Below are positions 26,496-26,853 of a DNA stretch of 64,000 nt, piece by piece. This DNA is from Verrucomicrobiia bacterium (lineage in GTDB: Bacteria; Verrucomicrobiota; Verrucomicrobiia; Limisphaerales; CAIMTB01): contig JAHCBA010000024.1 of the NCBI GenBank assembly GCA_019634625.1, positions 1 through 64,000 of the forward strand, in the 5' to 3' direction. Each line of letters begins with the position of its first letter. Within the stretch, counting starts at the first letter, position 1. The notes below the pieces were generated by a model. That model was not told where the DNA came from and ran no database searches. It worked only from the letters and a program-made list of their open reading frames with translations. A program made the position numbers and the translations under genes.

Positions 26496-26853
26496 GCAAC
26501 AGGCCTCGGCCTCGTGCTCGTGCTCGTGCTCGTGCTCGTGCTCGTGCTCGTGCTCGTGCTCGTGCTCGTGCTCGTGCTCGTGCTCGTAATCGTAATCGTA
26601 ATCGTAATCGTAATCGTAATCGTAATCGTACTCGTACTCGTACCCGCCCTGCCTGATTCGCATGCGAAATGGGAGGTCCGAACAGGGTCGAAGCCATCGG
26701 ATCCGCCATGAGGCGACGTTGAAACGGTGTGCCTGCGGGTTCGAGGACGCGTACGAGTACCGCCCTTCGGGCTGAGTACGAGTCCCGGGGAGGGGGAAAG
26801 GGCGTGGAGCAGTGGATTGCGGCCTCGCGGAGCTCGTCCCTCCGAAGGGTGAA
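26496..26853 (+). repeat. Composite hexamer-array repeat element, copy 1
   Basis: Starts TTGCAACAGGCCTCGGC. It then has about 12 units of CTCGTG (about 26510-26585), about 8 units of TAATCG and 3 of TACTCG (to 26643). A conserved segment of about 210 bp follows, with GGGAGGTCCGAACAGGGTCG, GAAGCCATCGG, CGAGTACCGCCCTTCGGGCT and CGGAGCTCGTCCCTCCGAAG. The same order recurs at 35171-35461. The gap 26311-26897 has no gene; peptides of alternating residues read from the array are artefacts of its 6-bp period. Confidence 0.75.

Follow-up and report, generated by a model that had tools for sequence, protein, structure and literature searches.

The window, the whole stretch of 64,000 nucleotides analysed here, is contig C24 of a draft genome (6.74 Mb, 88 contigs). 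It contains two copies of a composite repeat in which hexamer arrays are joined to a conserved segment, together with related repeats, and the features are as follows.

6118-6280, unstranded: related MITE (terminal inverted repeat CGGTGCATCCCGGAGTTGTGGGT) with the 9-bp duplication GCTTTCAGG at 6109-6117 and 6281-6289
18103-18265, unstranded: related MITE copy with the 9-bp duplication CGTGGTTCC at 18094-18102 and 18266-18274
26477-26489, plus strand: left terminal repeat of copy 1, GGGCGCATCTCCG, a degenerate form of GGGCGCATCTCAGA
26494-26510, plus strand: conserved start of copy 1, TTGCAACAGGCCTCGGC
26511-26642, plus strand: hexamer array of copy 1, CTCGTG, then TAATCG, then TACTCG (Tandem Repeats Finder)
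26648-26740, plus strand: drifting core of copy 1, without covarying RNA structure
26741-26760, plus strand: short opposite-orientation hexamers of copy 1 (CGAGGACGCGTACGAGTAC)
26761-26782, plus strand: near-invariant box of copy 1, CGCCCTTCGGGCTGAGTACGAG, with the hairpin GCCC-TTC-GGGC flanked by GAGTAC direct repeats
26783-26853, plus strand: recombinant tail of copy 1, which finishes in sequence homologous to the right half of the 158-bp MITE
35041-35110, plus strand: separate palindromic repeat (TTGGGTGTACACGCTTCAGCG...), frequently found just before the element
35156-35173, plus strand: left terminal repeat of copy 2, GCGCATTTCAGACTCTTG
35171-35184, plus strand: conserved start of copy 2, TTGCAGCAGGCCTC
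35190-35247, plus strand: hexamer array of copy 2, (CGTAAT)n (Tandem Repeats Finder)
35248-35339, plus strand: drifting core of copy 2
35340-35366, plus strand: short opposite-orientation hexamers of copy 2
35367-35388, plus strand: near-invariant box of copy 2
35389-35460, plus strand: recombinant tail of copy 2, the MITE right half

A preliminary description of this DNA had reported two copies with a common start, arrays and a segment of about 93% similarity, and all of these are present in the window. It placed the first copy correctly, although the shared start, TTGCA(A/G)CAGGCCTC, lies at 26494-26507 (and at 35171-35184 in the second copy) rather than beginning at 26496. Tandem Repeats Finder resolved the arrays of the first copy into CTCGTG x12.8 at 26511-26587 and TCGTAA x9.8 at 26584-26642, and that of the second into CGTAAT x9.7 at 35190-35247. 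The approximately 200 bp after the arrays are 93% identical between the copies and terminate in CGGAGCTCGTCCCTCCGAAG; the pattern GGTCCGAACAGGGTCGAAGCCATCGG had an expectation of 0.00 in shuffled sequence. The end block of both copies was also found, as had been proposed, in the MITE-like family of the window (D2, D9, I1, I6-I8 and I13). Of the terminal inverted repeats, the window copies have the left end only, in degenerate form.

A dispersed family of array-containing elements

When the 210-bp segment was collected genome-wide, as the preliminary description had suggested, at least 61 BLAST matches were obtained on many contigs (40 candidates scored). The box CGCCCTTCGGGCTGAGTACGAG, a 22-nt piece of this segment, was found at 120 genome sites with up to three mismatches, and its reversed control at none. 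We gathered 107 oriented copies for analysis. The family comprises upwards of 100 small dispersed elements, carried by nearly 40 contigs with unrelated neighbours, and 79 of the 82 clusters are intergenic according to a home-made gene caller. Simple segmental duplication of a single locus would be in keeping with the local tandem copies separated by 200-900 bp at some sites; however, the dispersed matches and differing neighbouring genes exclude a mere two-copy duplication, and we regard this origin for the family as having practically no chance of being correct.

A complete element measures about 260-350 bp and consists, in order, of the terminal inverted repeat GGGCGCATCTCAGA, a hexamer or heptamer array, a drifting core of about 95 bp, short hexamers in the opposite orientation, the box and a matching right end. 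Members of the full-length subtype (for example C9:182902, C53:15612 and C25:78093) begin with GGGCGCATCTCAGnnTCTTGCAGCAGGCCTCG, have CGAGGACGAGTAC as their opposite hexamers, and continue beyond the box for about 45 bp to CAAGAryCTGAGATGCGCCC. Copies having both ends carry the inverted repeats GGGCGCATCTCAG / CTGAGATGCGCCC, whose left and right members match and occupy constant positions; many other copies are incomplete at their ends. Copies in this genome that retain both ends are few, and no clean 9-bp duplication surrounds any of them, the best agreeing at about 7 of 9 positions; the copies are old and their target duplications have probably decayed. No open reading frame is conserved across the copies and there is no transposase inside the element; searches with the ends returned non-coding copies only, and no transposase gene bearing the family's ends was found by them.

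The second subtype, which includes the window copies, diverges just after the box and continues as the right half of a different MITE (GGACTCGCGGAGCTCGTCCCTCCGA); this block also stands alone in other genera of the order. This second MITE is a 158-bp palindrome with 370 end matches genome-wide; its end, CGGTGCATCCCGGAG, resembles the ends of the element, and at L286 it has inserted into the element. Parts of it are present in other genera of the order. The right approximately 70 bp of the window copies are half of this independent MITE, and we conclude that these copies represent a recombinant subtype in which the original right end has been replaced. The earlier suggestion of a composite, nested or fused structure was therefore well founded, while the '210-bp segment' it treated as one unit is actually not a single unit; it also overlooked the terminal inverted repeats, the ultraconserved box and the replication-strand bias.

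The claim that the arrays evolve quickly fits the diversity of units among 65 array-scored copies: 56 are hexameric and nine heptameric, with 14 different units (including AATCGT, AATCTT, ACTCGT, CGTGCT, CGGTCT and several heptamers) and lengths of up to 96 bp. Judging from this diversity, the hexamer tracts, which lie inside both ends in opposed orientation, may grow and switch units through replication slippage. A heptamer array (CCTGAAR/CCTGAGR) takes the place of the hexamers, with an identical core junction, at L274, L275 and L277, and the same substitution is seen in C10:95635, C13:22451, C14:131797, C25:78093 and C27:8832. Of the 313 genomes of the order that were compared, 10 contain TACTCG arrays. 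One genome, G307 (L349, L362, L366), has 83 TACTCG array matches without the box, so arrays can be numerous in its absence. L348 (G202) consists of an inverted hexamer hairpin alone, (CCTCGTACTCG...)-loop-(CGAGGACGAGGACGAG), lacking both box and core, and is a possible minimal form.

Two further repeats were noted in the window. A third palindromic repeat, TTGGGTGTACACGCTTCAGCGTGAGCCTCC...CGACACGCTAAAGCGTGCACACCCAAC, is present at 35041-35110 and 17785-17841 and often lies directly upstream of the element, and GGGGTCACATCTCTGAATTTGACATTTG repeats, both direct and inverted, occur at 37479-37623 and 38942-39026.

Relatives with terminal inverted repeats and target duplications

Comparison of one genome per species identified relatives of 263-326 bp in G057 (L344) and G141 (L347, L356), which represent two further families of the order. 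These have the 20-bp terminal inverted repeat GTGCGCATCTCAGATTTTTC with inverted hexamer arrays just inside the ends, and they are bordered by 9-bp duplications, of which TTCACGTCA and CGACGGCAG are perfect and AAACTGCTG/AAACCGCTG agrees at 8 of 9 positions. In 24 of 107 copies from our genome the right end agrees with the relatives' 17-nt terminal inverted repeat at no fewer than 11 positions, once at 17 of 17, and a control taken 300 nt downstream gave no matches at this level.

In the relative at L347 there is an IVP gene with an internal deletion. Pairwise tblastn aligned 54 aa of it with the intact gene of L345 (G087) at 59% identity (E=1.8e-14). This intact gene is a 23S_rRNA_IVP gene (PF05635, E=4.6e-15) of the four-helix-bundle type, and a hexamer array lies about 30 nt beyond its end. 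Profile searches of the short remnants against Pfam/NCBIfam gave nothing, IVP sequence is not recognisable in the window copies, and the copies in this genome do not encode an S23/IVP protein. Because relatives carry the remains of a 23S-rRNA-IVP gene between their arrays, the ancestor was probably an IVP-bearing element.

Given the matching ends, the copy number, the 9-bp duplications in relatives, the abundance in this genome of a second MITE with comparable ends and 9-bp duplications, and the lack of a reverse transcriptase, we think it probable that these are non-autonomous transposons of the MITE type that carry microsatellite arrays and depend on a transposase acting in trans on their terminal inverted repeats. 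The ends would be the inverted repeats G[G/T]GCGCATCTCAGA..., and insertion would duplicate 9 bp of the target, as seen in the relatives and decayed here. As the element itself encodes no transposase, its movement presumably relies on an enzyme supplied in trans that recognises GCGCATC/GTGCATC ends. A retro-type, SINE-like element with a simple-sequence tail could also have a variable simple-repeat tract on one side and many truncated copies; however, RVT_1 matches are absent from the source genome, and the lack of a reverse transcriptase contradicts this reading, as do the inverted repeats and 9-bp duplications of the relatives. We consider it extremely unlikely.

The closest published relative of this MITE-type family is BrickBuilt of Porphyromonas gingivalis, a minisatellite-containing MITE that is likewise intergenic, with terminal inverted repeats, an internal tandem array of variable length, many degenerate ends, nesting with other MITEs and no internal transposase (PMC4596501). 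BrickBuilt has 23-nt units, IS5-like inverted repeats and short variable duplications (PMC4596501), whereas the element described here has 6-7 nt units inverted on both sides, 9-bp duplications in its relatives, a near-invariant box and a replication-strand bias. The present family, with its more than 100 scattered copies, offers a tractable record of the birth and change of microsatellites.

The decaying PF05635 gene between inverted repeats also recalls the intervening sequences of 23S rRNA with their S23/IVP genes, and in Coxiella such a sequence has variable heptamer repeats beside the S23 ORF (PMC4990558). Unlike these, the element is intergenic and has terminal inverted repeats and, in relatives, target duplications; no rRNA is present in the window and the copies do not lie in 23S rRNA. 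That intervening sequences are remnants of transposition is an old idea, raised in PMC4990558, and the relatives, with an IVP/S23 remnant, inverted arrays, inverted repeats and 9-bp duplications, provide direct sequence evidence bearing on it. Descent from IVP/S23-bearing transposons, if true, would explain the spread of rRNA intervening sequences and of orphan four-helix-bundle genes.

Conservation and distribution of the box

The box is a nearly unchanging 25-letter hairpin, GCCC-TNC-GGGC, with the loop centre as its main variable position. Across 66 aligned copies, identity to the consensus was 77-91% per ten columns in the core and 96-99% in the box. As these copies had been found through the box, the search was repeated using the core alone; 38 of the 40 best matches kept the box, the other two having lost it by deletion, and these core-ascertained copies showed about 1% substitutions in the box versus about 10% in the core. 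Terminal-branch changes per site came to 0.76 for the box against 3.68 for the core (for box-ascertained copies, which somewhat lowers the box figure), and neighbouring duplicates, which are not independent pairs, differed at 2.8% of box positions but at 10.1% of the remaining ones. Constraint of this kind is not predicted by ordinary MITE biology, and could result from selection acting either on mobility or in place, or from gene conversion. A coding reading of the box (EYEYRPSG-stop) was rejected, as the reading frame is not preserved upstream and substitutions hit the loop-centre base.

With two mismatches allowed, just two of the 320 genomes of the order contained the box, this one 115 times and G312 (Verrucomicrobia MAG Ja1_bin-3224), which belongs to a different family, 88 times; it was absent from all tested congeners of both (G307 is a congener of G312). 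The G312 copies have the box and hexamers; the family's inverted repeats and duplications were not seen in them, the mean duplication being 5.2 against 5.3 expected. There were no exact box matches in the IMG/VR viral collection, and a virus origin was discarded.

The box could be a site selected in place, such as the site of a replication or chromosome protein, that has spread on the element or been co-opted from it. The contrast between box and core within the same copies, the retention of the box by core-ascertained copies, the terminal-branch and neighbouring-duplicate values, the free variation at the loop-centre base only and the strand bias described below all argue for this. However, its presence in just two genomes, and in no tested congener, means that the box is not a general housekeeping signal, and the branch test separates selection in place incompletely from selection on an active lineage or gene conversion. 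We therefore regard this explanation as possible but unlikely.

A structured non-coding RNA is suggested by the GCCC-TNC-GGGC hairpin and by the inverted hexamers, which could pair. However, an Rfam scan was without matches, folding of the 66-copy alignment gave only the invariant 4-bp hairpin and no covariation, and the strongest mutual information was a subfamily signal. Moreover, the arrays change to non-complementary units and heptamers, and we judge an RNA element to be very improbable.

Orientation relative to replication

Elements that are neighbours on a contig mostly share their orientation (36 of 44 pairs, p=5e-5), and in 73 of 82 clusters they lie on the G-rich strand, which in bacteria is generally the leading strand. 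At fourfold-degenerate sites the element strand agrees with the G excess for 72 of 81 elements. This excess on the element's strand persists in both co-oriented (0.38) and anti-oriented (0.51) genes, from which we conclude that element orientation follows replication and not transcription. The nested 158-bp MITE showed no strand bias (46 of 83), and in the second species, G312, 19 of 24 loci agreed in strand. Strand asymmetry at fourfold sites is very strong throughout the genome (G excess 0.38-0.51).

A strong replication-strand bias without gene-strand bias is not predicted by ordinary MITE biology and needs a mechanism; orientation-dependent instability of the hexamer hairpins could produce it. 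The bias of 72 of 81 and the terminal-branch conservation of the box are not expected of an ordinary MITE and count against one, as do the lack of a clean 9-bp duplication around the copies of this genome, the failure to find a transposase gene with these ends, and the G312 copies, in which neither the inverted repeats nor the duplications were seen. It is conceivable, though on balance rather doubtful, that the box is under selection in place with its strand dictated by replication: a transposon-borne 25-bp hairpin would then have become, or be riding on, an oriented chromosomal signal that two distantly related bacteria acquired horizontally, the element class itself coming from IVP/S23-bearing transposons.

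A further explanation is that a Y1 (HUH) transposase recognises the box hairpin and moves it single-stranded via the lagging strand, as in REPIN/IS200-type systems. REPINs resemble the element in having short conserved blocks with a less conserved spacer and in being intergenic, high-copy and hairpin-forming (PMC3116915, PMC6006769). Conserved foot sequences flank the hairpin, the strand bias is strong in two species, the source genome has 30 Y1_Tnp matches, and enzymes of this class are documented to target the lagging strand (PMC6006769). However, no box, end or array lies within about 2 kb of 20 Y1 genes examined (G000, G312), no linked RAYT is seen, and there is a single box with GAGTAC flanks, with no GTAG (or CGTC) foot and no inverted doublet. 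Box-less congeners also possess Y1 genes, and the relatives have inverted repeats and 9-bp duplications, which are not products of Y1 transposition. We consider this explanation improbable. A link to Y2/IS91 was likewise rejected, as there are fragments only here and full genes in congeners too.

The source genome (G000) contains about 28 copies of a Y1_Tnp (RAYT-like) gene of about 330 aa, for example L226-L240 (C8:47174, C19:23731, C5:46413). The copies compared are about 90-97% identical, with flanks not common beyond about 50 nt upstream, and the gene is an expanded stand-alone transposase, in contrast to the single-copy RAYTs in the literature.
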